Origin: Bradyrhizobium arachidis
GTDB taxonomy: Bacteria > Pseudomonadota > Alphaproteobacteria > Rhizobiales > Xanthobacteraceae
Length of the DNA stretch: 64,000 nucleotides
Assembly (NCBI RefSeq): GCF_015291705.1
Contig: NZ_CP030050.1
Location: 6,324,001-6,388,000 of the forward strand
Direction of reading: 5' to 3'
The first letter of the stretch is position 1; each line of letters opens with the position of its first letter. Below the pieces are notes generated by a model. That model did not search any database, was not told the origin of the DNA, and was given only the letters and a program-made list of their open reading frames with translations. The translations under genes and the position numbers were made by a program. Shown in pieces: positions 26,430 through 45,560 of this stretch.

Positions 26430-27701
26430 ATGCTCCCCGCACAACACAAGCGCGCCGCTGCATTCATCAAGAATTTGAAAGCTACCGATGCCCGTCAGGA
26501 ACTACCTGACGACGCTGTGAGCGGCCTCTACCTCATTGTGCAGCCCTCTGGAGCGTTGTCCTGGGCGGTTCGGACCAAGCTGGACGGCAAGGCCGCCAAA
26601 GTCACCCTAGGCCGCTATGACGAAGAAGGCTCAGGCCTAGAGCGGATCGACCGACCGTCCAGCAAGCAAGTTCTAAACGTCACCGAAGCGCGGGCATTGG
26701 CCGAACGCGTGAAGGCTGATGCAAAACGCGGGCATGATCCACGCCAATCGAAAACCGAGCGCTTTAGCCTCGAATACTGGTTTGATGAATTCTTGAAAGC
26801 CGCCCGCTCAACCGGGTTCAAAGGCCGCCCGGTCAAAGCATCCACAGCGGACGAATATGACCGCATCATCAAAACGGACATCAAGCCGCATTGGAAGCAC
26901 GTCACGGACATTCGAGCACTCGACTATCGCGACGTTGAAAAGCTGATCGACAAACTTGATCCCGGTGCGCGACGAAACGCGTTTGCGCTCTTGTCTACAT
27001 TCTTCCGTTGGAAAGCCGTCATTCGCATCATCGGCCGCAACGTGATCGAACTTGCCCACTCGCCTCCTAAACCGCAAAGCCGCGACCGTGTTCTTTCACA
27101 CGATGAAATCAAAGCTGTGTGGAACGCCGCAACAGCCTGTGACTATCCATTCGGGGCATTGGTCAAACTGCTCTTGTTGACCGGTCAGCGACGCGACGAA
27201 ATCGCGAACCTGAAATGGTCCGAACTGTCTGACACGTTCGATACAATCACGTTCGAAGGATCGCGCACTAAGAACGGACGCGCTCATATTGTGCCGCTTC
27301 CGCAACTGGCAAGCGCGATTATCAAGACGCTGCCGCGAGTGGCAATATCACCCGACAAAATGTCCGATTACGTTTTCACAACGATCGGCACCACACCATT
27401 CAGCGGCTTCTCTAACGGAAAGATTGCCCTCGAAAAGCACTACAAACCGGCATTGCCGGATTGGCACCTCCATGATTTGCGTCGGACGGTTTCAACCGAA
27501 CTCGCAAAACTACGCGTAACACAGGAAGTGACTGAAGCGATTCTGAACCATAAAACGGGCAAAGTCAGCGGCGTAGCAGCGATCTACAATCGCTATGAAT
27601 ACGCCGATGAAAAGCGCGAAGCCTTGAACCTATGGGCAGATCGCTTGCAGGAAATCCTCATCGATCGTCCACGCCCAAGGCTTGTTGTGTCTCAAGGATG
27701 A
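26430..27701 (+). CDS. int: Tyrosine recombinase (integrase)
   Basis: This 423-aa integrase has an N-terminal DUF4102-like arm-binding domain (GLYLIVQPSGALSWAVRTKLDG), a SAM-like core-binding domain (residues ~115-215) and a C-terminal catalytic domain. Catalytic residues seen are Arg in TGQRRDEI (~249), HDLRR (~346), His in NHKTG (~372) and the nucleophile Tyr in YNRY (~386). It lies 170 bp from the broken tRNA-Thr, the usual attL position. It belongs to the P4-integrase group of tRNA-targeting recombinases. Confidence 0.94.
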   Translation: MLPAQHKRAAAFIKNLKATDARQELPDDAVSGLYLIVQPSGALSWAVRTKLDGKAAKVTLGRYDEEGSGLERIDRPSSKQVLNVTEARALAERVKADAKRGHDPRQSKTERFSLEYWFDEFLKAARSTGFKGRPVKASTADEYDRIIKTDIKPHWKHVTDIRALDYRDVEKLIDKLDPGARRNAFALLSTFFRWKAVIRIIGRNVIELAHSPPKPQSRDRVLSHDEIKAVWNAATACDYPFGALVKLLLLTGQRRDEIANLKWSELSDTFDTITFEGSRTKNGRAHIVPLPQLASAIIKTLPRVAISPDKMSDYVFTTIGTTPFSGFSNGKIALEKHYKPALPDWHLHDLRRTVSTELAKLRVTQEVTEAILNHKTGKVSGVAAIYNRYEYADEKREALNLWADRLQEILIDRPRPRLVVSQG

Positions 27702-29735: not shown

Positions 29736-29874
29736 CGCGTAGCACCCTCAGCGTGGCCCTAACGCGCCGGGCGGCCCTGTATGCTCTCTCTAGATTTTCG
29801 CGAGCCTGTTTCCGCGTAACTTGGCACTCGCGGATGGCTTTGTCAGCTCGCCGAAAAAGCGGATCATCTTGCAT
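29623..29874 (-). CDS. Small basic helical protein, uncertain
   Basis: From the ATG at 29874 this frame gives 83 residues rich in Arg, Ala and Glu, with a continuous helix (DKAIRECQVTRKQARENLE). A longer frame starts at 29931. It overlaps the frame at 29511-29735 on the other strand, so only one of them is likely real. Composition favours this one. Confidence 0.4.
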   Translation of the reverse strand: MQDDPLFRRADKAIRECQVTRKQARENLERAYRAARRVRATLRVLRAMPDYRFRLEMADRAASVRESPVANRMSGSGDESTSE

Positions 29875-29939
29875 CGGACTGAAAAGCACGGCGTTCTGCT
29901 TCGTTCCTAAACGAAAAAGCGCCTGTCCCAAACACAGCC

Positions 29940-30665: not shown

Positions 30666-30675
30666 AAACGAAAGA

Positions 30676-30706
30676 GGCCCGCGTGGTGTCGCGAACCACG
30701 CGGGCC
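30676..30706 (+). terminator. Strong hairpin after the AlpA-like gene
   Basis: Perfect 12-bp arms GGCCCGCGTGGT and ACCACGCGGGCC enclose a 7-nt loop, 11 nt after the stop codon. No T-run follows, so it may be a Rho-assisted terminator or an mRNA-stabilising or processing element. Confidence 0.6.
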
Positions 30707-30755
30707 TAGCCTTCTGACCAATCCCCGAACTTCCGCTGAAGAAAGAACAGGCACT

Positions 30756-32963
30756 ATGCTTATAAGCTCGCCCGCCGAATTGATCAAGCGTCGCCCGTCG
30801 CCGATCCGTGTCTTTGACAGCGGGCCACTACCTCAGGTCTCTTTTACCTACTTTGCGCGTAACAACGATGCTCAAGGCACGAGATATCACAATGACTGGC
30901 CCGCGCTTTGCGCTTGGATAGAACAGAGCGCACCAACCGCAACGACTAAAGACGAGCTTCCGCTAATCAAGCTTGCAACATTCGCGAACAACTATCGTAG
31001 CAATGCCAGCATTGAAGCGATCTACGGAATTGAATGCGATTACGATGCAGAATTGATGCAGCCACAAGAGGCCCAATTCCGATTGACTGCGGCAAACATC
31101 ATCGCGTTTATCTACACCAGCCCGTCACACACACCGGAAAAGCCTAGGTGGCGTGTAATTGCACCAACATCGAAACCGCGCGGCGTATCCGATCGACATA
31201 ATTTAGTTGGACGGATCAACGGCATTTTAAGCGGTGTTCTCGCCCACGAAAGCTTTACGGATAGCCAATCCTACTATGTCGGACGGCTAATCAACGGCCA
31301 GCCCATTCAATGCTTCCGCGTGAACGGAACCCGCTATATCGACACGGTTGACTGCGTGATGATCGCGCCAGCGAAAGCTAACGGATCGACCGGACGCAAA
31401 CCGCTCGGCACAGATCGCGCGCCGGATTTCCAACTGGCAACGATCGCTTTAAACAGCCTTGATGTAAATTGTGACCGCAATGAATGGCGCGACATAAGCT
31501 TTGCTTTTCGTCACGCCGTAACCGGCCTCGTTCATGACAAGGCCGCTCGTCTAGTTTGGGACGTATGGAATACAGGCTTTTCCAAACCGAACGAACCGGG
31601 CGCAAACGATAAGCAATGGCGATCCGCTGACAACGGAACGAATTTTGGTTGGTCCTACCTCCGACATCAAGCAATCAAAAGCGGAAACCTTACTGACGAT
31701 CAGCGCGCCCGAATGACGCTTGGCGGTCCATCACCATTGCTCACCGCGCCACCTACGCCGGAAACATCGCAACTCTCAATCTTTGATCAGTCCTATAATG
31801 GCCCCTTGGCATCGTCCGCTGTTTCAACAGCGCTCGCCACGTACATCAGGCAGCATCTTCCGATCGCTTTCGACACGTTCAAACACCGCATGGTCAAACG
31901 CCAAGCGATGCCGTGGGACAACGAACCAACCAAGAAATACCCCGCGCTTTGGGGCGATGTGGATGACGCGTATTTGCAGAGTTGGTTTCACCATCTTGCG
32001 CTCAAACCGACAACGGAAGCGGTCCGCAACGCCTCGACCATTGCAGCCCATCGCAACAAATTCAATCCTGTGGTGGATTATCTGAACTCGCTGCAATGGG
32101 ACGGCGTTTCCCGCATCAACGATTTGTTCGTGACGTACTTCAATGCGACAAACGAAGCATTCGCGCGCATCGTCGGATCAAAATTTCTGATCAGCATGGT
32201 TGCACGCGCATGCAATCCCGGTTGCAAGGTCGATACTGTTGTCATTTTTGAAGGCGAACAAGGCAAACTAAAATCGACCGCGCTAAACGTTCTCGCTGGC
32301 GACGAATATTTTAGCGATGGATTGCCGGACATCCACCACAAAGATGCCGCCGACCATTTGCAAGGCCTATGGCTTGTCGAGATCGGCGAAATGGCTGCCG
32401 TCAAACGCTCTGACATCGCGGATGTGAACCGCTTCCTTACAACACGCATTGATAAATTTCGCCCCTCATATGGACGGCACACGATCGAAAGCCCACGGAC
32501 AAGCGTCTTTGCCGCAACGACCAATGCGGATGCCTATCTAAAAGACCCTACCGGCGCACGGCGGTTTTGGCCGATCGCTGTAGGCAACACGATCAATCTG
32601 GACGGCTTGCGGCGTGATCGCGATCAACTCTTTGCAGAAGCGGTCAGCCGATATCGACAAGGCGAACCGCATTGGCTTAACGATGCAGAATACGAAATTG
32701 CCAAGCACGAGACATCCCAACGTCAGGAAGACATGCACCCGTGGCACAACGTCGTTACCGCGCATCTTGAGTTCAAGAACATCGTCTACGTTGACAGAAT
32801 TCTTTCCGACATCCTGAAACTCAGCACCGATAAGCAAACCAAGAGCAGCGAAATGGAAGTCGCGAAGATCATCCGCTCGACTAAGCAGTTCAAACGAGGG
32901 GAAGATCACAACCGCAAACGATGTTGGAAACGAATTGCACCAATGCCGATGGTCGGTCAGTGA
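30756..32963 (+). CDS. VapE-type primase/helicase of the integrative element
   Basis: This 735-aa protein has an N-terminal primase-like region (residues ~25-170, with YGIECDYDAELMQ and PRWRVIAPTSKP). A C-terminal virulence-associated E (VirE, PF05272-type) P-loop NTPase domain begins around residue 440 (FNPVVDYLNSLQWDGVSRI). The Walker A is FEGEQGKLKSTALN (~500) and the Walker B LVEIGEM (~540). PTGARRFWPIAVG is the final signature. Such proteins replicate excised phage satellites and integrative elements. GC is lower than in the backbone. Confidence 0.88.
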   Translation: MLISSPAELIKRRPSPIRVFDSGPLPQVSFTYFARNNDAQGTRYHNDWPALCAWIEQSAPTATTKDELPLIKLATFANNYRSNASIEAIYGIECDYDAELMQPQEAQFRLTAANIIAFIYTSPSHTPEKPRWRVIAPTSKPRGVSDRHNLVGRINGILSGVLAHESFTDSQSYYVGRLINGQPIQCFRVNGTRYIDTVDCVMIAPAKANGSTGRKPLGTDRAPDFQLATIALNSLDVNCDRNEWRDISFAFRHAVTGLVHDKAARLVWDVWNTGFSKPNEPGANDKQWRSADNGTNFGWSYLRHQAIKSGNLTDDQRARMTLGGPSPLLTAPPTPETSQLSIFDQSYNGPLASSAVSTALATYIRQHLPIAFDTFKHRMVKRQAMPWDNEPTKKYPALWGDVDDAYLQSWFHHLALKPTTEAVRNASTIAAHRNKFNPVVDYLNSLQWDGVSRINDLFVTYFNATNEAFARIVGSKFLISMVARACNPGCKVDTVVIFEGEQGKLKSTALNVLAGDEYFSDGLPDIHHKDAADHLQGLWLVEIGEMAAVKRSDIADVNRFLTTRIDKFRPSYGRHTIESPRTSVFAATTNADAYLKDPTGARRFWPIAVGNTINLDGLRRDRDQLFAEAVSRYRQGEPHWLNDAEYEIAKHETSQRQEDMHPWHNVVTAHLEFKNIVYVDRILSDILKLSTDKQTKSSEMEVAKIIRSTKQFKRGEDHNRKRCWKRIAPMPMVGQ

Positions 32964-33450
32964 CCGAAAGCGGACCTATTATGCTCAATCCGAGTTCTTC
33001 GCTTTTTGACCCTAATGTATGGTCCGGCCGTGGGGTGCAAGAAGATTTCGACGATCCGGTAGATGCGGTCTTGCATCAATGTATCCGGCCTCTGTTTGGA
33101 GCGCAGTGCTCCGGGCCATCATGGATATCAGCGCGCATGTGATCTGGTTAGCGGACAGGCCTCGACCGGGCCATTTGGGTCACCAGGGTTCACATGTGCC
33201 GGGAAGACCGATTCTCCATCGTCGTCTCATCCTCTCGCAGACCTCGGCGGGTAAGGGTTGTTACGTCATCGATAGCTCCTCACTTCGCGCTGTTCCTTCG
33301 TTCGTGCCTGGCGGCCGTTCCTTCGTCCCGGCCTGCGCGCGCAGACGCGCCGCGCGCAAGGGGCCGTCAAAGCCGGCCGTCGTGCTGTCCTGACGTCTTG
33401 CTCTCCTGCTGCCAGGCTGCGCCTTGACGGCCCCGCGCACGGCGCGAGGA
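32964..33450. other. Gap between VapE gene and IS110 transposase
   Basis: No gene was recognised. The left end of the IS110 element should be in the right-hand part. Frames here are short and lack protein-like composition. IS110 elements have no long terminal inverted repeats, so the edge cannot be placed by eye. Confidence 0.4.
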
Positions 33451-34515
33451 TCAAGCAGGTCGGGACACCGTCTCCTCCATCTTGACGCACGCGAAGGCGC
33501 GTCCCTTGTTGAGGACCGCCCAGGCGATCCGGGCGAGCTTGTTGGCGAGCGCAATCGCCAGCACGTTGTGGTGCAATCGCTTCTTGGCGGCTTCGATCCA
33601 AGAGTTGAGGCCATAGCGCTCCCAGCACTTGACCTTTACCAGAACAACCCACGCGGCTTGCACGAACAGCGCGCGCAGGTAGCGATTACCGCGCCTTGAT
33701 ATACTGCCGAGGATCGTGCGGTCGCCGGTCGATATCTGCTTCGGAACAAGTCCAAGCCAGGCGCCGAAGTCGCGGCCTTTCGAGAACACGTCTCCGGTGC
33801 CGATCGCAGCCACCATTGCGCTCGAGATGATTGGGCCAATGCCAGGCACCGTCATCAGTCGCTGGCAGGCCCTATCTTGACGGGCTAGTGTTTCGATCTC
33901 GCCAGATAGACCCTCGATACGCTCATCCAGCCGGCGCCAGTCTTCCGCCAGACCCTCGATGATGGGCAACATGCGAGGCGAGAGCACATCAGTGCGTGTT
34001 GCCAAGATACCTGGCAACTCGAACCGCAGGGAATGCGGGCCTTGCCGCACGGCGATGCCCCGTTCCAGCAGGAACGCACGGATCTGATTGATCGCGCCGG
34101 TACGCTGACCGACCAATCGATCGCGGACGCGGTGCAGTGCCTGAAGGTCGAGCTGATCGGCGGTCTTGGTCGCGACGAACTTCATGGTCGGGCGTTGGAC
34201 AGCCTCGGCGATGGCTTCCGCATCTCGGAAGTCATTCTTCTGTCCCTTCGAATACGGGCGCACGTATTTCGCTGGCATCAGGCGGGCGTCGTGGCCAAGT
34301 ACTTGGAGTTTGCGGCTGAGATGATGGGCGCCTACGCAGGCCTCCATACCGATCAAGCACGGCGGCAGGTTGGCGAGCCGCGTTTCCACCTGGCCGCGCG
34401 ACCACTTCTGCCGCAGCACGATGGCACCGCGGTGATCCTGACCCACGATGTGGAACGAGTTTTTGCCGATGTCGATGCCGATCACGGCGATCGCCGCGTT
34501 GAGTTTCTGAGACAT
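33451..34515 (-). mobile_element. IS110-family transposase gene
   Basis: This 354-aa DEDD transposase begins with VIGIDIGKNSFHIV (first Asp), then GMEACVGAHH (Glu), then the conserved Asp pair of KNDFRDAEAIAEA. The C-terminal domain carries VPGIGPIISSAM, the IS110/IS116 signature. It appears intact, from the ATG at 34515. IS110 elements move with a structured guide RNA encoded beside the transposase; such an RNA would be expected in the flanking non-coding ends. It interrupts the element between the VapE gene and the Crp/Fnr-type regulator. Confidence 0.93.
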
Positions 34516-34648
34516 GGCGTGCTCCTTGTCTTGAGCGCCCCTTGCCAGCTTCTCGTGCTGGCAGGGCCGGAGCACGGCCGGACCATCCCATTAACGGACG
34601 TCGCCACTTGAGCACAACGCGTCATTGGCGCGGTTCGTGGTAAAGCGC

Positions 34649-35389
34649 TTAGCCGACGGAAGGGGTATGTTTCCGTTTTAACCGCCTGTGCTTGCGCGGG
34701 GCATCTAGTTCTGTCAGGCCAGCGGCATTCAGAATGACGATTTGGCGTTGCCTTGAGTCATCCAAGAACTTCAGGTGACCCTTCCGCTCCAATGCGCCAA
34801 ACATACGTGACACCGTCTCCAAGGTGAGGCCAAGATAGTCCGCAATGTCACGGCGGCCCATTGGAAGGGCGATGACACCTGCTGATGTCAGGCGGCCATT
34901 CATCTCGAGAAGAAACGCTGCCACGCGTTCTCGCGCAGTGGTGCACCCCAAAAGGAGTATGTGATTCTCGACGTGCCGAAGATTGGCCGTCGTCATGGTC
35001 AGGAGGCTCAGAATCAGTCCAGGGTCGGACTTGGCCACCCGTTCCAGGCTTTGGCGTTTAACAAGGCGAACTGTAGTGTCGACGATGGCTTCGGCTGTGA
35101 ACCGATGGAAATCGCCGTTGTCGAGACCGAAGATATCGCCAGGCAAGTGAAACGCCCCAATCTGGCGGCGACCGTCAGATAACAGCTTGTAGGTCCGAAC
35201 CGCGCCTTCAATCACCTGATAGATATAGTCCGCAGGCTCCGCTTCTCCGAAAATCTCGGTACCCCGGCCATATTTGAACTCGCCTGAACTGACTTGTGCA
35301 TGAGACAGGTCACCGAGCTCGCCAACAAGTCGAGGCTTTATATTGGGGTCGGTACTGAGGTTTATAAACATAAAGATCCCCAATCCCAT
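34649..35389 (-). CDS. Crp/Fnr-family regulator, FixK-like
   Basis: This 246-aa protein has a cyclic-nucleotide-binding-like beta-roll (residues ~40-150) and a C-terminal HTH GRRDIADYLGLTLETVSR, whose LETVSR recognition helix matches FixK/FnrN. The N-terminal Cys cluster of oxygen-sensing FnrN is missing, so it is FixK-type. Such regulators bind TTGAT-N4-ATCAA and switch on microaerobic genes. Its promoter region has a palindrome at 35448-35468 and a FixK box at 35617. A start at 35371 is also possible. Confidence 0.88.
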   Translation of the reverse strand: MGLGIFMFINLSTDPNIKPRLVGELGDLSHAQVSSGEFKYGRGTEIFGEAEPADYIYQVIEGAVRTYKLLSDGRRQIGAFHLPGDIFGLDNGDFHRFTAEAIVDTTVRLVKRQSLERVAKSDPGLILSLLTMTTANLRHVENHILLLGCTTARERVAAFLLEMNGRLTSAGVIALPMGRRDIADYLGLTLETVSRMFGALERKGHLKFLDDSRQRQIVILNAAGLTELDAPRKHRRLKRKHTPSVG

Positions 35390-35447
35390 ACTGGTGCGGT
35401 ATGAACCGCAGGTGGCGGCGATTGTGACACGCTACCTTAGTATGGTG

Positions 35448-35468
35448 TATTGCCCCCTTGGGGCAATA
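35448..35468. promoter_or_regulatory. Perfect 9-bp inverted repeat upstream of the FixK-like gene
   Basis: Arms TATTGCCCC and GGGGCAATA enclose a 3-nt spacer, about 60-80 bp upstream of the regulator's start. This may be an operator or a hairpin in the leader. It does not match the FixK box. Confidence 0.55.
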
Positions 35469-35616
35469 GCCTTGACCGCTGTCGATGAAGTAAGGCGACG
35501 TCTGCCCTGGGTGGACCATTGCCACACCGTTCGCCTGCCGCGCGATTCAAGCGCCTCCCGCGCGGCGGCTCTTGGCGCCGATTTGAGCAATTCACCCTTT
35601 AGGCGCAACATTTCCG

Positions 35617-35630
35617 TTGATTTGAATCAA
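35617..35630. promoter_or_regulatory. FixK/FNR box
   Basis: TTGATTTGAATCAA is a perfect match to the TTGAT-N4-ATCAA consensus. It lies 33 bp before the small gene at 35664 and about 230 bp upstream of the divergent regulator gene. It most likely drives the small gene, and the regulator may act on it. Confidence 0.8.
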
Positions 35631-35663
35631 GGGTCCCCGATTGGCTAGTTGATTTCTTGCGCC

Positions 35664-35804
35664 ATGATTGACGAAGAGCCCCGCCAGCCTAAGAAAGAAA
35701 CGGAAACCAAGCCGCCGCGTCTCGAAGAGATTCGGCAGAACCTTGAGGTCTACGTGAACGATCTGCGGGCGATCATCGAGAGACTTCGCAAGAAGCTCAA
35801 TTGA
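35664..35804 (+). CDS. Small charged protein under a FixK box
   Basis: The frame encodes 46 residues, from MIDEEPRQPKKETETKPPRL to a helix with DLRAIIERLRKKLN. It is highly charged, with an N-terminal disordered half and a C-terminal amphipathic helix. The FixK box at 35617-35630 is placed well for activating its promoter. No strong SD precedes the ATG. Function unknown; it may be a low-oxygen-induced small protein. Confidence 0.6.
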   Translation: MIDEEPRQPKKETETKPPRLEEIRQNLEVYVNDLRAIIERLRKKLN

Positions 35805-36039
35805 GCCAAATTGCCTGATCGAAATTCTGCGCAACTTCTTGTCGGGCTGCGCATCAAAAAGGCGTGGTGTTTCCGCTTCGCTCGTTAATTGTAGGCAAGA
35901 TCAAGTCACGTCCGCAGTTGGCCCTTGGCGGGCCTCCGGCTTCGAAACCGCGATGTCTGCTTTCGGAGGTGAAACAGACGCCCCCGTTCGGACGGGACGG
36001 GGCTTCGCTCGCTAGCCGATAATTTCCATTTCTCCACCC

Positions 36040-36245
36040 ACCCCACCGCCAAACACCACCCCACCACCAGTTCCTATAGAGTACCCAAGCGCTATAGGTA
36101 AAATTATGGAATTACATAATTCCTCCTGCTCTCTTTACTCTCCTAACTAATAGGTGGTGGAGGTAGTGGAGAGGCTGCAAAAACAGCGCATTGCAGTTCA
36201 CCACCTATACCACCGCCGTCCAAAGGCGGTGTTGAGCACAAATGC
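36040..36245. other. Structured AT-rich region, candidate origin or transfer/regulatory site of the element
   Basis: The region has inverted blocks CCACCACC (36061) and GGTGGTGG (36153), a 9-bp pair TAGGTGGTG (36151) / CACCACCTA (36199), two CTATAG copies (36074, 36092), and the palindrome GGAATTA-CA-TAATTCC (36108-36123). It is AT-rich in the centre and carries no gene. The whole gap from 35805 to 36580 is otherwise non-coding. The dense symmetry suggests a replication or protein-binding site used by the VapE-type protein; this is inference. Confidence 0.45.
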
Positions 36246-36580
36246 CCGTCCGATCACGCGACGGTCGGTTGCGTCGATAAACATCCCCCATTCGTTACCC
36301 GCGTAAGCCCGTCATCACGCAAACGCTGCGACTGAAGTGCTTTGCGTGGTCGCGCTCTCAGATTGCTGAACCGATGCTCCTTTCCTAGCGCGTCACCACC
36401 ATCACCACCGCAATAAACACCGCTTGACCATCGCAAGTACATCGCAATATTCACCGCAAAACTCAGGTCAACAGAGGCATTAACGAGCCCAAGACGTTGC
36501 CGCTTCGCACGCCGCGCTGATGGCCGTCGATCCGGCAACAAGCGCAAATGCCCATCTGAGGGCGCGCGCAATGGCATTAT

Positions 36581-37252
36581 GTGACAGCGCTGACCGGCCG
36601 GCAAGCCATCGCGATTGACGACAACACGCCGTATGAGACAACGGCCGCATTGATCGAATCCGGTGCACTGGCGGCCGTGAGCGATCGTGCACGCGATGCC
36701 GCGACCACACGCTATATGGCTCAACGTCTAATCGCAAAATCTGGATCAACCGCAGCGCACCAGATCGCGCCCACTTATGGACGCCCTCTCGCAACCGGAC
36801 CGGACCACCGTGCCGCGCGCGAAGCCGCCACGCGCGAACTCGATAAATTGAGCGCAACCGCCGATGCCTGTTGCGAGTGTGTGCGATGTTCTATCGACCG
36901 CGACGAATTTGTCACCGCACGATATCTACAAAACGCTCGATCGCAAATAACAGCGCAATGGCCGGGCAAAAAGCATTGCCCGGGCACCGTCATCAGTGAT
37001 CAACGTGAAGGTTTTGCAATGAGAAGCGAGCGCCGTCCAGATTTTCCGCGCGGGGTGGTGCTGCCAGCGACGCCGGAGATGGACGCCGCGACGCTTCAAA
37101 ATTCCTTCGTGCGGTCGCGCGCGGTCTTGTCGCGATGGAGAGTGGTGGAAAACTTCCCGGTTGCGACGCGTCGCGGCAATGTGTGGTGGACATCTGTATC
37201 GGAGGTTGCACAGTTCTGCGACCGTAAGCAGATCAAGGTGATTTGGGTTTAG
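36581..37252 (+). CDS. Hypothetical protein of the integrative element
   Basis: A GTG at 36581 opens a 223-residue frame. The N-terminal part is Ala/Thr-rich (NTPYETTAALIESGALAAV). The C-terminal 77 residues begin at an internal ATG at 37019 (MRSERRPDFPRGVVLPATPE) and have a more convincing DNA-binding-like character (VWWTSVSEVAQFCDR). It precedes a DUF5681 gene by 4 bp. The true start may be 37019. No family was recognised. Confidence 0.45.
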   Translation: MTALTGRQAIAIDDNTPYETTAALIESGALAAVSDRARDAATTRYMAQRLIAKSGSTAAHQIAPTYGRPLATGPDHRAAREAATRELDKLSATADACCECVRCSIDRDEFVTARYLQNARSQITAQWPGKKHCPGTVISDQREGFAMRSERRPDFPRGVVLPATPEMDAATLQNSFVRSRAVLSRWRVVENFPVATRRGNVWWTSVSEVAQFCDRKQIKVIWV

Positions 37253-37256
37253 GATC

Positions 37257-37676
37257 ATGAGCAACGTCATGCCGATGCCAACCGATGTTAACGGCCGCGA
37301 TGGCAAGGGTAGGTTTGCCAGCGGCTCCGGCAATATCGGAAGGCCCCGTGGCGCGAAATCGCGACATGCCCGAGATCTATCTGCACTCGTAAGAGCCCTT
37401 TCAAATCGTGCTTATGAAGCCCTGGCAGGGGCGATCGACAAGAGAGAGCGTTGGGCAATCGAACTCTATTTCAAACTTAGTCTTCCACACGGTCTCACGA
37501 TGGAAATGCACGGGACCACCATTGAAGATATCGAGACCGCAACGGCCGACGGAGATATCTCATTCGAGCAAGCGAAGGCGCTGATTGCAAACAAGAGGGA
37601 CGGCAAGGCAATCAACGAACTCGATGAACACCGCGCAATGATGAAAGAGATTTTGGAGAAGTTGCCAAAGCGATGA
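37257..37676 (+). CDS. DUF5681-domain protein
   Basis: This 139-aa protein has the DUF5681 signature GRFASGSGNIGRPRGAKSR at residues ~18-36. Such proteins are often found near phage or satellite packaging genes and may bind DNA. The stop overlaps the next gene's ATG (ATGA), indicating coupled translation. It is the second of four genes on the plus strand. Confidence 0.7.
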   Translation: MSNVMPMPTDVNGRDGKGRFASGSGNIGRPRGAKSRHARDLSALVRALSNRAYEALAGAIDKRERWAIELYFKLSLPHGLTMEMHGTTIEDIETATADGDISFEQAKALIANKRDGKAINELDEHRAMMKEILEKLPKR

Positions 37677-38050
37677 TCACGGAGCGGGACAAGAGACAGC
37701 TTGCGGCGATCATTGCAATTGTAAAGCCTGCTCATAGTCTCGCCGCGCGACTGGATGAGTTAACCAATGAACAACGCAGTTGTTACGCCGAATGGCGAGC
37801 AAGTTATGAGAAGTGGATCGAAAGATGCAGGGCGCAATGCCCGGAAGATGATGACCCGGATGCGTGTCTTTATTGCCGATCTCTTGAAGATGAAGATTAT
37901 GGGCCAACGCTACCCCGCGAAAATTACGAACCAAAGCTTCGACGCGATGTGAGAATTGCTCTGTATGGTCTAGACAAGTTCATTTGGGCCAATGCAACCG
38001 AGGAAGAAGCTGAGCGGATTTACAAGGATTATTGCGATGAACAACGTTGA
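37673..38050 (+). CDS. Hypothetical protein with Cys cluster
   Basis: This 125-aa acidic protein has RCRAQCPEDDDPDACLYCRS at residues ~51-70, a four-Cys cluster (CxxxC...CxxC) that could bind zinc. It overlaps the upstream gene by 4 bp and the downstream gene by 14 bp, so the three are one operon. The function cannot be assigned. Confidence 0.6.
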   Translation: MITERDKRQLAAIIAIVKPAHSLAARLDELTNEQRSCYAEWRASYEKWIERCRAQCPEDDDPDACLYCRSLEDEDYGPTLPRENYEPKLRRDVRIALYGLDKFIWANATEEEAERIYKDYCDEQR

Positions 38051-38558
38051 TAGACTTCCCGAAGGTTGGCACATGATCCGCGTAGAGCATCCTACGCCGA
38101 TCATCTACACTTTCGGCGCTGAAGTCGATCCGTATACATGGCAGTCGTCACCATCAACGTTTAGATTTTTCGTAACGGCAAAGCAATTCAACCGCAAGCA
38201 CGGTCAGCATGAAGCAAACAGGCGACCAAACATTCAACATGTAACGGCGTTGATATTGAGCGGGATGGCCGAACCATTTCGCATCGCTAAAGATGCTCTT
38301 GGGCATGACAATCTGTTGGTCAACGCTGAAACGTTGCTCAAGATCGTTACGTTTCACTCTATGCGCAAAAACAATCCGGGCGGCGCATTCAAAGCTCGTG
38401 AGCTTGCACTATTGTTCGAAGAGTACACCAACCAGAAAAACGATGCTCTCGACTGGCTCAAAACGATTACTCCACGCGACCGCGCGCTCGCCTTTTTGAC
38501 GATTTTGCATGAAATGATTGAGTGGAAACAGCGATACGGTTTATCAGACGAACCGTAG
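38037..38558 (+). CDS. Hypothetical protein of the integrative element
   Basis: This 173-aa protein begins at the ATG at 38037, which overlaps the previous gene by 14 bp. It contains WHMIRVEHPTPIIYTFGAE and FKARELALLFEEYTNQKND, with mixed alpha/beta composition. No family was recognised. It ends shortly before the IS3 OrfA relic, so it is the last gene of the element's operon before the RiPP region. Confidence 0.6.
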   Translation: MNNVDRLPEGWHMIRVEHPTPIIYTFGAEVDPYTWQSSPSTFRFFVTAKQFNRKHGQHEANRRPNIQHVTALILSGMAEPFRIAKDALGHDNLLVNAETLLKIVTFHSMRKNNPGGAFKARELALLFEEYTNQKNDALDWLKTITPRDRALAFLTILHEMIEWKQRYGLSDEP

Positions 38559-38586
38559 TATTTTCCAATCCGAAACAACAGAGGAT

Positions 38587-38739
38587 GGCCTCGTCCATCA
38601 CGCCAAACTTAGCCTTCCATTTGTGGATGCTGGCGTCGCTGACGCCGTGCTTGCGGCAAAGATCGGCTACCGAAACCCCGGCCGCGCACTCCTTCAAGCT
38701 CCCGATGATCTGCTCTTCCGTAAAACGAATACACTTCAT
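38587..38739 (-). pseudogene. IS3-family OrfA remnant (N-terminal 51 codons)
   Basis: The minus strand encodes MKCIRFTEEQIIGSLKECAA, then VADLCRKHGVSDASIHKWK, the HTH part of IS3/IS407-type OrfA proteins. Homology stops after GVMDEA at 38587 and the rest of OrfA and OrfB are absent. It lies 190 bp beyond the end of the RiPP operon. A second IS3 relic is on the far side at 44620-45560, so the cluster may have moved with these elements. Confidence 0.8.
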
Positions 38740-38929
38740 GCTCTGGTCTTCGTGGTGGGCCAGAGCGAACTTCAAACTGGATTAAGCCCTTGCGGCACGG
38801 TCAGATTGGTAAGCATGAAACAGCGGTGTGCTTGCCAAAGCTGGAGCGAAAAAATGTGGAGCGATGGCAGTCCGGCTCAACCCTGGCCGACGATCGAACC
38901 GGCGAGCAAGGGTTTTTCCCGCGGGTCAT

Positions 38930-40096
38930 TCAAGAGGCTGCTTCAATAGGGCGCCCAAGTGTGCAACCAAGAAGTGCAAACTGCTCTTTGCCATCAATGC
39001 GCAATACTTGCTCTAGTCCGTCTTCCACGAACGCGGCAATTGGACATGATCCCAGTCCTAATCCCTCTGCGGCCAATTGCAAATTCTGCCCGAGGAATCC
39101 AATATCCATACACATATAGCGATAGGATCTAGCACCATACTTCCATTTCACCCGCGCGTAGTTACCCACAAGTACGATGACGACTGCTGCGCGATCAACC
39201 GCTCGATTTTGAAAAAAAATCGAAGCCAATAGAGATGAATAGTCACCACCCTCAATCAGCTCCAGTGAGCGACTCAGCGAATGATATCGGTAGAGTCCCA
39301 TCGCCAATCGCTCAACGCTTCGCGCGAATAGGTATACGTCGGGTGACTGCAGCCCTCCAGTCGAGGGAAAGGTGCGAAGAGCCAAATTCTGGTATCCATA
39401 TGCCGGCGCCGTACCAGTTACGCCACATGCGTGCTCCAACAACGTTGCAAGCTCCACGAGCCGAACGGCACTCTCCGCATAGTCTCGTCGCGAACGCCTG
39501 TCACGAAGCAATTGTGTCAAGCTAGTCAGAATCGGCTGAGGGGTCGGCAGCTGTATCCATCGGGGGTCGCGTTCAAAGTTGGGGACCGAAACGGGGGCGT
39601 AGTAACTCCCATTATTCTCCAACTCAGCGCTAACAAGTCCAGTATGGCCGCGATCCACGCTCAAGTGTCGTGTCTTTACATACTCGTTGTAAAATAGACC
39701 TACGTCCTCTTCCCAAAACCGTTCCCCGGACGCGACGTCTTTTATTGTTGGCAGAAGCCGTAGCGCTTCTGGCTCCGAGAGCAACTCTACTAGGCTACAA
39801 AGTTCTTTTTGAGCGGAAACACGCATGCTCTTGTAAGCAACAGAACTCTCCACATGACCCGAATCAACTGGCGTCTCGATACCGTATTCAGGTGTAGCTG
39901 CGTTCCCCTTGCCGCTATCGATGCGATGGCTTTCTGACATCCACTGAGAAAGTTGATCTATTTTTATTCCGAACTCCTCAGCGAAACGCCGCATTATTTG
40001 CTGTCTTGACGAAGCCCGCTTTCTGCTTGCCGTTTTAGCTATCCGGCTTTTATTTGCTGTTTTAGCTATCCGGTTTCTGTTTGCCGTTTTAGCCAT
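38930..40096 (-). CDS. SagB-type flavin dehydrogenase of the RiPP cluster (B1)
   Basis: This 388-aa nitroreductase-fold protein matches the SagB/McbC family, which oxidises azolines made by the YcaO enzyme to aromatic azoles using FMN. The flavin-contacting RDRRSRRDY is at residues 198-206, and LGQNLQLAAEGLGLGSCPI is the usual C-terminal motif. The N terminus has a basic triple repeat of 9 residues (AKTANRNRI, AKTANKSRI, AKTASRKRA), which is not usual in the family. GGTGAGGAAAC precedes the ATG. It is the last gene of the operon. Confidence 0.88.
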   Translation of the reverse strand: MAKTANRNRIAKTANKSRIAKTASRKRASSRQQIMRRFAEEFGIKIDQLSQWMSESHRIDSGKGNAATPEYGIETPVDSGHVESSVAYKSMRVSAQKELCSLVELLSEPEALRLLPTIKDVASGERFWEEDVGLFYNEYVKTRHLSVDRGHTGLVSAELENNGSYYAPVSVPNFERDPRWIQLPTPQPILTSLTQLLRDRRSRRDYAESAVRLVELATLLEHACGVTGTAPAYGYQNLALRTFPSTGGLQSPDVYLFARSVERLAMGLYRYHSLSRSLELIEGGDYSSLLASIFFQNRAVDRAAVVIVLVGNYARVKWKYGARSYRYMCMDIGFLGQNLQLAAEGLGLGSCPIAAFVEDGLEQVLRIDGKEQFALLGCTLGRPIEAAS

Positions 40097-40157
40097 GGAG
40101 TTTCCTCACCTGACACCATATACCCAAACGAACTTAGCTTATCATCGACTTTTCCCT

Positions 40158-40919
40158 TCAACGTCGAGAGCAAAGAAGCGCAACAACGCACTCTTCTAAA
40201 CCGTCGCACTCCATAGTCTGGTCGACATCCGCGTCTATGAACTCCAAATAGCAGTCCAAGTCGATCCCACCGGCCGCTGCTGCTCTAGTAATTTCGCGGC
40301 AGAGCTGGCCAGCTTCCATGAGGGCGTGCCGATACCCTCGGGCTCCAAACAAGAGATCATTTCTGGCGAAGCTTGCGACTACCGCAATCAGCGGGAATGA
40401 TAAGTCTTCACTAGGAGTATTTCCCAAAACCGCCGTCGATCTCTTCAGACTGTCCAGGTGAATTTCATCTATCTGCTTGGCTATGTAAACTACTCCGGAA
40501 ACCGGCTCTAAGATACCAATGGTCGCATTTACAACCACCCGAACCTCGCAGGTGTAGTAAAATTGGAGTAGCGCCGGATGAGCCAGGCTCGACAACAGTG
40601 CTTGCCACGGCGGGTCGACCTTGAGCATCGTGTATTCTGATCGTCGAAGGATGGCCGATCGGCGCCTCGTGAAGTCTGCTCGGAGTGAAGCCGGATCGAT
40701 TGATGCGGCACCTACTTCACTTGCCATGGACGGAAAATACTTGCTATTTGCGTGATAGAGTTCCGCGACCGAAACATTCGGGGACAAGGAACGCTGTCTG
40801 TAATCGGACACGCTATGCTTCTGAATCCGTGTTGTCTTCAAAGGCCATTCGATCGGAGATAAAAGAAGCTCTTCGTAAAGATCCTTTGGGGTCCTCGATC
40901 GCTCACCCAACTCACGCAT
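40158..40919 (-). CDS. Second SagB/McbC-like nitroreductase-fold protein (B2)
   Basis: From the ATG at 40919 this frame encodes 253 residues of a nitroreductase-like protein. FGARGYRHALMEAGQLCREI matches the C-terminal flavin-side segment of McbC-type proteins, while the flavin-contacting Arg cluster is less clear than in B1. It may be a second dehydrogenase or a non-catalytic partner. A GTG at 40949 also starts in frame. The same frame is open back to the stop of the YcaO gene (TAG at 40981-40983), so D and B2 lie in one frame divided by a single stop. Confidence 0.78.
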   Translation of the reverse strand: MRELGERSRTPKDLYEELLLSPIEWPLKTTRIQKHSVSDYRQRSLSPNVSVAELYHANSKYFPSMASEVGAASIDPASLRADFTRRRSAILRRSEYTMLKVDPPWQALLSSLAHPALLQFYYTCEVRVVVNATIGILEPVSGVVYIAKQIDEIHLDSLKRSTAVLGNTPSEDLSFPLIAVVASFARNDLLFGARGYRHALMEAGQLCREITRAAAAGGIDLDCYLEFIDADVDQTMECDGLEECVVALLCSRR

Positions 40920-40980
40920 TGGACGCCCTTCCCTTCGCAGAAAGAACACCGGGATCCTATACTTTCCGCCTCGCAGGTCC

Positions 40981-42402
40981 CTAAGGGAATGGAAGCGGAA
41001 GTCGATTCAGTTCGTCGTAAGTTAGTCTGCCGTGTTTTAGGCCCAATTGCATGGGGACATCGTAATATCTTGGATGTCCGAAATATCCATGTGAGGGTAA
41101 GTGCGCGTGGGTCAATTGTGGCATGAAAACTTTTATCAAGTGCGCGTCAGGCCAACATGAATCGCTAAAGTCAAAGAGGATCGGGTCTATATTGCGTTGC
41201 AAAAGCAATTCTCTGACCGCGTCATACTCTCCATTCAGATCACTGCCCGAGATCGACGGCACTTGATCCCAGGCCACCCGGGCTGGACCATCCGCATACC
41301 ATGACAGCAAGGACAGATTCTCCTTGAAGCCATAATATATCAATGCATAGTAAAAATCTGTTAGATCTGAAAGTTGGCTGTCGGGCCTAATGTGGTCCCA
41401 CGCGTGCGGCGTCAGCGCGTAGCCAATCTGCGCCTGACCGATCTCAAAGACAGCCTGTATCAAGGCGCGATCGGGTTTTCCCCATCCGCCCCCGCCCGCT
41501 AAAAGGGCCCTTCCGTCCCGCGACTTATCAAAAGTCATCACTGTGAAGACCGGAAGGGGAATATCAAGCGTGTTCAGGAGTACTCGGGCCTTCTGAATAT
41601 ACGGGGTCATCATCCGAGGAGCGCTTTGCTCAGTGTTATTTTTTAAAAATTCAACCAGATCAATGTCAACAACTGCGGGCGGCAGTTTGCAGTACCAGGA
41701 CAGATTTATCGCGTCCCTTTCCACGTTCTCGTAGATCCCGTGTAAAACCGCTTGACGAAAGTTCGTATGAAAGACCAATCCCCCGCTCGTCGCGTAGCCG
41801 ATGCGCGCCTCTTGAGGAAATGCGCACCAATGAAAGGCAACGAGCTGGGCAGGAACATACACATCTTGGGCGGCAAAGAGGCGCTTGCCCTGTAACCATG
41901 CGACCGGAGTATCTTCTGTAAACGGAGCAAACGGAAATTCTTCCTTGGCATACTGTTCCACCGCGAATAAAGGAAGCTCTCCTGGTGGAAGCGCCGGAAG
42001 CCCACGCGCTTTTAGTTCGTCGTATGTACCGAACTCGGCGCGGTCTCGTAGTAGTCGAGTTTGAAGGGCTGCCAAGATACGTTCACAAGCCTCCCCCATA
42101 TTTCCGAGGAAAGCCTGCTTCATTGTAGGGCCCTTGCCACCAATTGGTATAGCCACTGAATCCCAGAGTGGACTCTTGCCGACAAGATCGCCGAGCAGGC
42201 GACCAACAGGTGAGTGGCGGCAAGAGGTGCCGTACATTGAGAGGTCAAGGAGTTTCGGACGGTGGATGCTGACGGCTGTTACCGGGCCAATAGATTGATT
42301 GTAAAGCCGCGGCACAACTTCATATTGCAAGCGCCGATTCTCGTCATAGAACGAGTCGAAAAGTTCAATTCGCTCGTTAAGATTTGTTGCTTCTAACACC
42401 AT
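40981..42402 (-). CDS. YcaO-type cyclodehydratase (D protein, SagD-like)
   Basis: This 473-aa protein catalyses ATP-dependent cyclisation of Cys/Ser/Thr to azolines. The YcaO ATP-binding signature GNMGEACERILAAL and the later GIYENVERDAINLSW are present. The C terminus RLPLPFP has the PxPxP motif seen in azoline-forming YcaO proteins. The frame extends to a TTG at 42438; I prefer the ATG at 42402 because the SD is no better upstream. It overlaps the C-protein gene by 26 bp, so translation is coupled. Confidence 0.9.
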   Translation of the reverse strand: MVLEATNLNERIELFDSFYDENRRLQYEVVPRLYNQSIGPVTAVSIHRPKLLDLSMYGTSCRHSPVGRLLGDLVGKSPLWDSVAIPIGGKGPTMKQAFLGNMGEACERILAALQTRLLRDRAEFGTYDELKARGLPALPPGELPLFAVEQYAKEEFPFAPFTEDTPVAWLQGKRLFAAQDVYVPAQLVAFHWCAFPQEARIGYATSGGLVFHTNFRQAVLHGIYENVERDAINLSWYCKLPPAVVDIDLVEFLKNNTEQSAPRMMTPYIQKARVLLNTLDIPLPVFTVMTFDKSRDGRALLAGGGGWGKPDRALIQAVFEIGQAQIGYALTPHAWDHIRPDSQLSDLTDFYYALIYYGFKENLSLLSWYADGPARVAWDQVPSISGSDLNGEYDAVRELLLQRNIDPILFDFSDSCWPDAHLIKVFMPQLTHAHLPSHGYFGHPRYYDVPMQLGLKHGRLTYDELNRLPLPFP

Positions 42403-43570
42403 TCTGCGCCTGATGTTTTCCTTGATGAAACAACTCAAGCGGTTCCGGACTATCTATATCTAGAAGGTCGAGAGGCAGCGCGGCCGTATACTCGGGTCTG
42501 TCGCGGGAACACACCGGGCACCGCGGCAATCTTAGAACGTCTTCAACGTCCACCAACATGCGATCAAAGTAGATCGACTGCACTCGCCCCAGTACAAACG
42601 ACTTGTTCTGCAAAAGAAATTGTAAAGCGGCAAAGGAAGCATATCCTCCGACGACCTCAGCAAACGCTGGTAGCCCCGGAAAGTACGAGCAAGCTCCGCG
42701 CCGGATAATGTGTTGCCTATACCTACGCGACATTTGCTGACTGATTACAGGCGCCTCGCTCAGCGTGCGCAGACAGTTGTAACATGCTGTGTAAGGGGGC
42801 AGAAACGCGGGGCCTACTAACCCGATATTACCATCCACCATCGCCATCATCCACGGTCGACGGTTTTTGACGCAAACCCGATTGATCAAATGTAGGAGCC
42901 GCAAGTCGGTCTGCTCCAATGCAACTATCGTCAGATCGGCAGCCAGGATCGCCTGTTGTACCCCATCGACATCCAATTTCGCGTCGATAGCCGCAACTCC
43001 ACCGCTACCTGCCGCGGCGAGTAGGGCAGCTGCGGTATCGTGAGCCTTTCCATCAACAATTTGGTGGCCTAGTCCAAAAAGCGGGAGAGAAGCTCTCCAC
43101 ACTTCGTCCACCTTTCGGTCATCTAATAGATTGAGCTGAGGGACACCACTTTCAGCCAATCCGTGGGATATGCGAATGCCTACCGGTCCTAAACCTACTA
43201 TGCTGACCTTCTTATTTTGAAGAGAGGATTGGTCCCCGTAGGTGTACTTCAAGTACTGCTGCACCGGCGATTCAGTTGCGGCTGTGAGCAGCCCCTTCGC
43301 TACGAGATCCACTACAATCCGGCGCACCTTTTCTAACGGAACACCCAACGATTCTCCTAAGTGTTCCATTGTCTTAGGAGATTCGGAGATCGAGTCGAGA
43401 AGGCGGCCAAGGACACCTGTAAGTCCGGCGTCACGGAGTAGTTCCGCAGGTTTGGAGCGCGATCCAAATTGAATGAGCACTTCATCGGCGCCAAGGACAA
43501 CTACATCGAGCCCCTGCGCGACGGCCAAATACGCACAGTCCTCTGCGCAAGACGGTTGCTTCATCGACAT
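42377..43570 (-). CDS. ThiF-like leader-peptide-binding protein (C protein, SagC/TOMM type)
   Basis: This 397-aa protein is the E1-like partner of the YcaO enzyme. A winged-helix region (residues ~20-100) likely forms the RiPP recognition element that binds the precursor leader. A Rossmann motif VSIVGLGPVG is at 122-131. Two CxxC pairs, C263/C266 and C351/C354, can bind structural zinc. It is preceded by two 15-bp tandem repeats and follows the precursor gene by 250 bp. Known family members guide the precursor to the cyclodehydratase. Confidence 0.9.
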   Translation of the reverse strand: MSMKQPSCAEDCAYLAVAQGLDVVVLGADEVLIQFGSRSKPAELLRDAGLTGVLGRLLDSISESPKTMEHLGESLGVPLEKVRRIVVDLVAKGLLTAATESPVQQYLKYTYGDQSSLQNKKVSIVGLGPVGIRISHGLAESGVPQLNLLDDRKVDEVWRASLPLFGLGHQIVDGKAHDTAAALLAAAGSGGVAAIDAKLDVDGVQQAILAADLTIVALEQTDLRLLHLINRVCVKNRRPWMMAMVDGNIGLVGPAFLPPYTACYNCLRTLSEAPVISQQMSRRYRQHIIRRGACSYFPGLPAFAEVVGGYASFAALQFLLQNKSFVLGRVQSIYFDRMLVDVEDVLRLPRCPVCSRDRPEYTAALPLDLLDIDSPEPLELFHQGKHQAQNGVRSNKS

Positions 43571-43583
43571 ACAATTAGCCCTA

Positions 43584-43613
43584 CCTGAGCGGGCTCAACC
43601 TGAGCTGGCTCAA
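43584..43613. repeat. Tandem 15-bp repeats upstream of the C gene
   Basis: CCTGAGCGGGCTCAA (43584-43598) and CCTGAGCTGGCTCAA (43599-43613) are adjacent copies with one mismatch. Each is internally a dyad (GAGC-n-GGCTC). They are 14 bp before the C-gene ATG. They may be an operator or stabilise the mRNA between the precursor and enzyme genes. Confidence 0.7.
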
Positions 43614-43823
43614 ACGCCTTCGACGGTGACCGTGCCTTCAGAGATAACACCGTCCCGAGCAAACTGAGCCGCTCGACGTGTTTGTAGAGCAGACCTAATA
43701 ACCGGACCGCCACTCCTTGCCGACAGGTTAGCCGCCCATGCATCAACCGCCCGCGGCAGCTGCCCTGTCACCGCGTGCTGTTGGTGCGGACATGCTCTTG
43801 ACCGCGAAGGGTCCACTCGACCA

Positions 43824-44276
43824 TTAGGACTGACCGCCGGCTCCTTGAGGCCCTCGCATACCACTCACAGCAAGATCCCACCCCCAACACCAACCGCCCC
43901 CGGCTGCGGCCTGACCTTGAGGGCCTTGAGGCGCCCGCATACTACTCACAGCAACATCCCACCCCCAACACCAACCGCCCCCGGCTGCGGCCTGACCCTG
44001 AGGGCCTTGAGGCGCCCGCATACTACTCACAGCAACATCCCACCCCCAACACCAACCGCCCCCGGCTGCGGCCTGACCCTGAGGGCGTTGAGGCGCTCGC
44101 ATACTACTCACAGCAACATCCCACCCCCAACACCAACCGCCCCCGGCTGCGGCCTGACCCTGAGGGCCTTGCGGCGCTCGCATACTACTCACAGGGAGAT
44201 CACTCGACCAAGACCAGCCCCCCAAGGCTGCAGATTGACCACCTTGTCCAGCTGGCGGAAATACGTTGTCAACCAT
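43824..44276 (-). CDS. Multi-core RiPP precursor peptide with 27-residue repeats
   Basis: AAGGAGGAA, 6 nt before the ATG at 44276, fixes the start; the longer frame to 44456 has no such site. The 150-aa product has a short N-terminal part (MVDNVFPPAGQGGQSAALGG), then five repeats at residues 21, 48, 75, 102 and 129. Units 2-5 begin WCWGWD; the shared part is VSSMRAPQ..PQGQ and units are joined by AAAGGG. Cys is at 49, 76, 103 and 130. Unit 1 has WSWSSD instead of WCWGWD and unit 5 is truncated. Cys and Ser are the cyclisation candidates; no Thr is present. It leads the operon. Confidence 0.85.
   Translation of the reverse strand: MVDNVFPPAGQGGQSAALGGWSWSSDLPVSSMRAPQGPQGQAAAGGGWCWGWDVAVSSMRAPQRPQGQAAAGGGWCWGWDVAVSSMRAPQGPQGQAAAGGGWCWGWDVAVSSMRAPQGPQGQAAAGGGWCWGWDLAVSGMRGPQGAGGQS
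43827..44216. repeat. 81-bp tandem repeat array in the precursor gene
   Basis: Anchors of the form ACnACTCACA occur at 43860, 43941, 44022, 44103 and 44184, spaced exactly 81 bp. The middle copies differ by a few bases only, so the array is young or kept uniform. The repeat is coding, so it is not a CRISPR array. Confidence 0.95.
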
Positions 44277-44619
44277 TTGGGGTTCCTCCTTAAAGACATT
44301 TCGCGTCAATGCGGAGAACGAAAACGATTCCACAACCAGGGTGAGAATGCAAGTTTTCAATGGCGCGATCGTTTCGTCGCCGCTCAACTTTTTGGGATGC
44401 TCTTCCCACTTGAAGGGCATCGCGAACCTTGCTCGACTTCTACTGCGCGTGGGCACGTATGGTGCTCAAGACGAGTTCCCACTTCGCCCAAGACAACTGC
44501 GGAGCTTGCCAAATTGGTCGCCCGACTGGCGCCCTCGCCCACAGACGGCGCACTCGAGTCGAAACCAAGGTTTCGGGTGTTGCAGACGTCCGCACGCCGT
44601 GTAGTGGATTTTAGTCACC
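44277..44619. promoter_or_regulatory. Precursor leader region and promoter interval
   Basis: The strand upstream of the precursor has no gene with a good start. The ribosome binding site AAGGAGG is in this interval, next to 44280-44290. The promoter of the RiPP operon should lie here, between the precursor and the IS3 OrfB relic. No specific binding site was recognised. Confidence 0.45.
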
Positions 44620-45560
44620 AATGCGATCCTGATTGACAGCCAAAATAGATTTTCGCTGGGCACGGTCCTCTCCCCCGACCGGCGACGACCGAGATGACCC
44701 GCGGAGCCGGGGCCGCTTGAATCGGTTTGTTAGCTGGCCGCTCTTGATCCCTTTCTATCATGCTGCCAGAGACTCTCTGTCTGTTGCTGTTGCTGTGGGC
44801 TTGTGGTCGAGCGTCAGCGTTGTCCATCGTGTCCAGCCTTGGCGGCCTGCTACGTTCGCGCCAGACCGGCATCGGTGCGGATAGCCGAGTGCCTGATGAA
44901 GGCGACGACCGTTGCAGCATGCGATCCAGTTTGCGATTCCTGATTTGGCCTCGCAGCGGTCGGCATACTTCCAAGATAGATGTCCTCATCCTTGAGCGAC
45001 CGCGACAGTCGCGTCGATAAAGACGTTGTCCATCCTACGACCGCGGCCACCCATGGGAGATCTTAATTCCTGCGCCCGCCAACGCGCCGGTGAAGGTCGC
45101 ACCGGTGAACTGGCTGCCCTGGTCGGTGTTGAAAACCTCCGGCGTGCCGTACTTCGCCAGCGCCTCTTCCAGACCCGCCGCGCGTGTTCGACAACCGCCA
45201 CGCCAGAACCGCATCGCTCGCCCAGTCGCTGACGGCGACGAGATAAAGAAAGCCGCGGCCGATGGGCAGATAGGCGATGTCGGCCGCCCACACCTGGTTC
45301 GGCACAACGATCGTCATGTTGCGCAGCAGATAGATCTTGTGGCCCGACGCTGGCTTGGTCTGTTCGCCTTCGGTCCCAGCGCCGCGATACCCATCTTGCG
45401 CATCAACCGCTGCACGCGCTTGCGATTCAGCATCGCGGTCATTCGCCGCGAGCCCAGGAACCGGCCAGGCGGCGAACAGCTCGTCGATCCGCCGCGTCAG
45501 AGCAAGGTCGTTGTCGTTGGCCCGCCGCGCGGCGGGCGAATGGATTCCGACGACTTATGT
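44620..45560 (-). pseudogene. IS3-family OrfB (transposase) remnant, several frameshifts
   Basis: Across the three minus frames the expected order appears: QVWAADIAYLPIGRGFLYLVA, then EVFNTDQGSQFTGATFTGAL, then MDNVFIDAT, then KDEDIYL and the tail PMPVWRER...IERDQERPANKPIQ. Frame changes at about 45,240, 45,060, 45,000 and 44,900 destroy the gene. DDE residues are scattered. It lies just upstream of the RiPP precursor. Confidence 0.85.

Follow-up and report, generated by a model that had tools for sequence, protein, structure and literature searches.

The enzymology by which C, D and B proteins make thiazole/oxazole-modified microcins (TOMMs) is classical, and microcin B17 bears its rings on one chain. 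In the streptolysin S/cytolysin group, according to passages of one account, the cluster includes a CaaX-like protease and ATP-binding cassette (ABC) transporters, and a Gly precedes a stretch of at least 10 potentially cyclised residues (PMC4603692). Repeated precursors occur in other YcaO pathways: passages on thiovarsolin describe TfuA-YcaO pathways with a YcaO protein and a precursor of up to five tandem units, report that the array yields peptides from single units, and call such extensive repetition rare, likening it to some cyanobactins and phomopsin (PMC6511847). Cyanobactins, in passages of two papers, likewise combine a YcaO cyclodehydratase with precursors of variable repeat number (PMC4603692, PMC6511847). 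The locus described here lies in a window of 64,000 nt of Bradyrhizobium arachidis DNA (contig NZ_CP030050.1, positions 6,324,001 to 6,388,000; window positions are used below), and its five genes are, as far as sequence can tell, best read as a linear azole peptide (TOMM-type) operon whose precursor carries multiple cores in tandem.

Five open frames lie on the minus strand between 44276 and 38930, in the order precursor, C, D, B2 and B1 (open reading frame (ORF) list of the window; Table 1), which confirms the genes, order and strand given in an earlier note on this DNA. The locus shares its three enzyme types, and the presence of an adjacent precursor, with SagBCD and the other TOMM operons in which C, D and B are discrete proteins. 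Unlike the streptolysin S type, it has no CaaX-type protease or ABC exporter (neither was found in the five operon proteins or in 20 further window ORFs scanned) and no run of cyclisable residues, the longest Cys/Ser/Thr run of the precursor being 2; it has repeated one-Cys cores and a pseudo-SagB protein, B2. Thiovarsolin pathways, as described in passages of PMC6511847, make thioamides with TfuA, whereas the window has C and SagB-type proteins and no TfuA domain in its five operon proteins. In contrast to cyanobactins, C and D are separate, and none of the five operon proteins is a PatA/PatG-type protease. Microcin B17 (McbBCD) likewise has separate E1-like, YcaO and SagB-type proteins, and B1 and B2 both match McbC, but the window has a repeated precursor, a second dehydrogenase paralogue and no exporter in the operon. 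The same enzymes, with C in the same or a sister clade, make up the C-D-B2-B1 operons of Chloroflexota and Actinomycetota, but the precursors there are single-core and Cys-rich. A repeated precursor, set against seven non-repeated templates in relatives, would be an unusual layout for making azole peptides. Since TOMM chemistry, the gene set and repeating YcaO precursors of other kinds have all been published, the locus is not a new class, and the suggestion of the earlier note that it may be an undescribed system for a ribosomally synthesized and post-translationally modified peptide survives only in part: the precursor and core were not found elsewhere in the collections searched, but the enzymology is classical. 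No description of this repeat or of a B1/B2 pair was recognised in the open-access literature by title or start of abstract; the main text of PMC4603692, in the portions covered, does not mention Bradyrhizobium, Chloroflexi, Frankia or "multiple core" and uses "repeat" for Cys-Ser, Gly-Cys, Gly and Cys repeats, and the portions of PMC4513790 covered do not mention Chloroflexi, Streptomyces or Frankia.

The precursor contains five GGW units at a spacing of exactly 27 residues (81 nt); four open with GGWCWGWD, the first opens with GGWSWSSD, and the last comprises 24 residues from GGW. The five 27-residue units that had been proposed, four of them with WCWGWD, were thus confirmed, with a shorter fifth, and so were the four Cys and many Ser proposed as cyclisation sites: the 150 residues include 4 Cys, 14 Ser, 14 Trp and no Thr, with one Cys in each of units 2-5. 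Units 3 and 4 have the same protein sequence and are one synonymous base apart, units 2 and 3 show one amino acid change and one synonymous change, and unit 5 is diverged; the frame is unbroken across repeats 1-4. Tandem Repeats Finder reported a period of 81, 4.3 copies, 96% matches and a score of 648 for the array, which occurs once in the 9.87-Mb genome. Only 3 of 711 stop-to-stop window frames (at least 50 aa) contain W-x-W at least twice, the precursor nine times and the other two twice each. AAGGAGG precedes the precursor ATG with 8 nt between. For the 27-residue unit GGGWCWGWDVAVSSMRAPQGPQGQAAA, the computed mass is 2729.223 Da unmodified and 2709.197 Da with one azole.

C is over the cut-off for PF00899 (ThiF), and residues 13-355 of its structure model match MccB; its N-terminal domain is likely leader-binding. 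D is over the cut-off for PF02624 (YcaO), aligns near full length with LynD and TruD and terminates in PLPFP; its start is most likely the ATG at 42402, not that of a longer TTG frame, because relatives begin at the same Met. The conserved columns of C and D are retained and all five operon frames are open, and we infer from the sequence that the pathway is functional. Intact motifs had been claimed for C, D and B1, and PLPFP in D, CYNC and CPVC in C and Lys-Tyr in B1 are indeed present; the first CxxC of C is, however, uncommon among relatives, with the closing Cys in only 3 of 27 aligned rows and Asp in most (the alignment included 26 of 57 relatives). A defence reading of C was rejected, as it drew only generic E1-E2 matches.

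B1 scored 131.7 bits against TIGR03605 (cut-off 78.4) and has its catalytic Lys-Tyr intact as WKYG; the KY residues of such dehydrogenases are termed catalytic in a passage of PMC8442711, and the Lys-Tyr of McbC stands ahead of the RGYR motif. B2 matches no Pfam model and SagB only weakly (20.1 bits, cut-off 78.4); hhalign aligned the B2 and B1 profiles with a probability of 95.3 (E 2.1e-8). The B2 model has a mean predicted local distance difference test score (pLDDT) of 68.9, with residues 1-82 below 50; the best match by E-value is McbC (5.2e-6), but with a TM-score of 0.46 and a root-mean-square deviation (rmsd) of 17 A, and the two-domain nitroreductase 3eo7 superimposes with an rmsd of 2.9 A over 140 columns. 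Comparison of nine operons with B2 (the window, L006-L012 and L027) revealed that Lys-Tyr is missing in 9 of 9 B2 copies (LF, LL, LF, GG, GG, FG, EA, LL and FF) and kept in 8 of 8 B1 copies covering the motif, the L006 B1 being cut by a contig end. Of the two SagB-like proteins described in the earlier note, only B1 keeps the catalytic pair: B2 is degenerate, and is likely a conserved non-catalytic pseudo-dehydrogenase that partners B1.

Table 1. Mapped features of the operon and its surroundings (window positions)
Feature	Position	Strand	Basis
Precursor gene, 150 aa, five tandem units	43824..44276	-	ORF and sequence
AAGGAGG, ribosome-binding site of precursor	44285..44291	-	sequence
Unit 1, GGWSWSSD, Ser replaces Cys	44142..44222	-	sequence
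Unit 2, GGWCWGWD	44061..44141	-	sequence
Unit 3, GGWCWGWD	43980..44060	-	sequence
Unit 4, GGWCWGWD	43899..43979	-	sequence
Unit 5, GGWCWGWD, shorter, includes stop codon	43824..43898	-	sequence
C protein, ThiF/E1-like, 397 aa, likely leader-binding N-terminal domain	42377..43570	-	profiles, alignment, model
CYNC of C, first likely zinc pair	42773..42784	-	sequence
CPVC of C, second likely zinc pair	42509..42520	-	sequence
D protein, YcaO cyclodehydratase, 473 aa, PLPFP end	40981..42402	-	profiles, alignment
B2, pseudo-SagB, 263 aa, nitroreductase-like half without catalytic Lys-Tyr	40158..40949	-	profile, model
Leu-Phe of B2 where catalytic Lys-Tyr would stand	40347..40352	-	alignment
B1, SagB-type dehydrogenase, 388 aa	38930..40096	-	profiles, alignment
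Lys-Tyr pair of B1 (WKYG)	39137..39142	-	alignment
Tyrosine integrase at GC drop from ~0.65 to ~0.56, likely island edge	26430..27701	+	GC profile, domain scan
VapE-like/primase protein, low-GC stretch shared with integrase	30756..32963	+	domain scan

The account that we favour, and consider reasonably probable, is that C, D and B1 turn the Cys of each GGWCWGWD into a thiazole and that one translation product gives several copies of one Trp-thiazole-Trp peptide. C would bind the precursor through its MccB-like N-terminal domain, with the repeated spacer VAVSSMRAPQGPQGQAAA serving as its internal leader, a possibility raised because the non-repeated N-terminus ahead of the first GGW is only 18 residues long. 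D with ATP would then cyclise the Trp-flanked Cys of each unit and perhaps the Ser in unit 1; B1, using flavin mononucleotide, would oxidise the thiazoline to thiazole, paired with its dead paralogue B2; and host peptidases such as TldD/E may trim the product and release the units. The host genome has two TldD/E family members, and TldD/E cleaves the microcin B17 leader according to the abstract of PMC5810440. A more tentative extension, which we put forward with some doubt, is that each repeat has its own recognition sequence, that a C-D-B complex walks along the array and that a B1/B2 heterodimer oxidises it, the dead subunit being conserved in three phyla. A bacteriocin-like role against related soil bacteria seems the most likely use. 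If the favoured account is true, tandem multi-core precursors extend to azole pathways in which C, D and B are separate proteins, a natural array of near-identical one-Cys cores becomes available for direct tests of leader placement, and a conserved pseudo-dehydrogenase belongs to a group of TOMM operons of Chloroflexota, Actinomycetota and a Bradyrhizobium-like host.

A search with C gave 57 proteins at E <= 1e-5, including the host's own, among 7990 scored candidates; the nearest other relative, P0002, is 73% identical and lies on an 18.6-kb contig. In a midpoint-rooted tree of 72 C proteins (P0001, the host's own C, left out), the window pairs with P0002 (100/100), and the two nest in a 58-row clade (99/97) whose placed rows, by locus record or database name, are Chloroflexota (L006 and L007), Allorhizocola (L012) and an Acidimicrobiales genome (P0030). 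The neighbouring clade (99/98) holds L027 with the Frankia and Streptomyces loci L008-L011, while distant C proteins on long branches (L005 and L013-L018) were excluded from claims on the group. The C-D-B2-B1 set is present in L006, L007, L012 and L027, and C, B2 and B1 in L008-L011; the window falls in this group, with C in the clade and a B2 without Lys-Tyr beside a B1 with it. Within the genus, C was found at E <= 1e-10 in 2 of 265 genomes, the host and a second one that carries a different C-YcaO pair (C 30% identical), and the core pattern in the host only. In the order sample, C was found at E <= 1e-20 in 1 of 397 genomes, the host itself, and C matches were found in 2 of 400 genomes of the phylum of L007 and 1 of 397 of the order of L012, the 400- and 397-genome samples each being drawn from a larger group. 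For the precursor, no match at E <= 0.001 was found among the 7990 candidates sharing most words that were scored from ~5.8 billion proteins. In the genome contig collection, a single C query confirmed 0 of 38 stretches and an alignment query 13 of 46; viral contigs gave 0 of 47 confirmed stretches and no core pattern, phages no match, and plasmids two distant C matches and no precursor region. The unlike ThiF-YcaO pair of the other species of the genus is at L005 1141-3654.

Upstream of the relatives' C genes, seven Cys-rich precursors were read at six loci, all single-core and none a tandem array; a filter for at least 4 Cys in 12 residues found none at L011, and just 46 bases upstream of C were readable at L006. 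The precursors are MSVRNIGNPG...GWSCCCWW... in L007, MPINETRARE...GGCNCNCNCNGG... in L012, two near-identical MKLNSF...PGGWCCCCCCWCHATIN copies in L027, and MLRIIDKVEEKYFSADATVAPGGWCCHCHC... or a one-change version in L008-L010. Those of L008, L009 and L027 scored 22.3-24.0 bits against the streptolysin S model TIGR03602 (cut-off 35), and a search with the L007 precursor returned its own copy only, among 5 candidates. In L007 (3433-3672) and L012 (9709-9885), the long tail after the Cys cluster looks helical by eye, so recognition by a C-terminal follower is possible in these two loci. GGWC is common to the window core and five of the relatives' precursors.

Several results weigh against the favoured account. 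C is below the cut-offs of TIGR03603 (68.3 of 187.65 bits) and TIGR03882 (35.2 of 36.9), and D is 14 bits below that of TIGR03604 (205 of 219.25). No NCBIfam model recognised the precursor at E <= 0.1, its Pfam matches were all below cut-off and at chance level, its units offer only one Cys each, and its N-terminus, in which no leader was recognised by sequence, is by eye unlike the leaders of L008-L010 or L027. When compared with L008, L009, L010 and L027 a and b, shuffled units scored as well in 50, 35, 32, 56 and 62 per 2000, and shuffled relatives in 7, 2, 1, 29 and 39 per 2000; a profile search was negative (best stretch -0.5 bits). On these controls, derivation of the window core from GGWCC cores is only suggestive and is not claimed. 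The Pfam scan of the five operon proteins, which contain neither a protease nor an exporter, also counts against release of single units, and it fits a rival that survives best of three yet strikes us as unlikely: the same chemistry on an array that stays uncut, giving a ~15 kDa chain with up to four thiazoles, its repeats serving length or avidity, cf. microcin B17. The lack of a dibasic pair in the spacers and the identical protein sequence of units 3 and 4 also speak for such a chain; AAAGGG ahead of each core might nevertheless be a cutting site, and the thiovarsolin YcaO array yields single-unit peptides, according to a passage of PMC6511847.

The lack of a visible transporter, on which the earlier note had remarked, holds for the operon; it is not special, as no CaaX-type protease or peptide exporter was recognised in the surroundings of the L007 and L012 operons either, some neighbours there being judged by eye only. 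A major facilitator superfamily protein (57740-59011) is the one exception among the scanned window ORFs. In L027 (1848-8887), two near-identical precursors are followed in a row by C, B2, B1, genes for a CaaX-type (Rce1-like) protease and an amidohydrolase, and ABC transporter genes, with a YcaO gene upstream.

The G+C content is ~0.60-0.68 up to 26 kb and 0.51-0.59 over 26-48 kb, with a minimum of 0.51-0.52 at 38-42 kb, and the operon is flanked by a transposase helix-turn-helix frame (38467-38775) and a weak integrase-core piece (45063-45317, below cut-off). Because of this low-G+C stretch with an integrase, a C clade that is otherwise Chloroflexota/Actinomycetota, and the distribution of the genes, the operon was likely acquired by horizontal transfer. 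It might then be a stranded, non-working import whose genes are intact while export, immunity or expression is lacking in the host, which we judge quite unlikely. The mobile setting, with pieces of transposase to either side, the missing operon exporter, the occurrence in a single genome (the host) out of 265 in the genus and the absence of a consensus promoter on the operon strand would suit such an import, but the five open frames, the retained conserved columns of C and D and the frame kept throughout repeats 1-4 argue against it. The consensus scan of 38700-44800 found no promoter-like site on the minus strand and one in all, on the plus strand, against 3.6 expected by chance; terminator-like sites there were not in excess (6 found, 7.1 expected), and the RNA fold of the precursor-C gap did not stand out (z -1.06; 26 of 200 shuffled sequences folded equally well). 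A 15-nt unit in 2.1 copies lies directly upstream of the C start (43583-43613; Tandem Repeats Finder).

The weakest rival, an unrelated Gly/Pro/Gln-rich repeat protein beside enzymes that act on a missed or distant peptide, would agree with the absent family match, the weak core likeness, the few Cys and the open frame on the opposite strand, but it is improbable for a gene that lies directly upstream of C behind a strong ribosome-binding sequence, in the precursor place of six related loci, with no better candidate frame (at least 50 aa only) in the 254-nt gap to C. The opposite frame is 263 aa long (plus strand, 43845-44636). The protein collection listing the neighbouring C did not return the precursor, which hints at why such precursors escape notice; perhaps gene callers took the opposite frame.

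Mobile-type genes fill 26430-38558, comprising the integrase, the VapE-like protein, an IS110 transposase, a CRP-type regulator and small proteins without Pfam match. The last 14 to 20 bases of a tRNA-Tyr, considered as an attachment site, occur only once in the window. Plasmid records matching window positions 25001-50000 were from Bradyrhizobium in 67 of 132 cases, the matches listed being mostly insertion sequences. Outside the group, a 42-aa ORF with GGCCCCCCPCCCCC (L013 321-449, from a Cloacimonadota metagenome-assembled genome) precedes a distant C gene and a SagB-like frame and is likely a TOMM precursor. The host genome itself has a further YcaO, a 757-aa frame with a B1-profile frame downstream (L001, G000:C1:5409089-5413048), which is likely a second TOMM-type locus, and a third YcaO at G000:C1:9576054-9576974.

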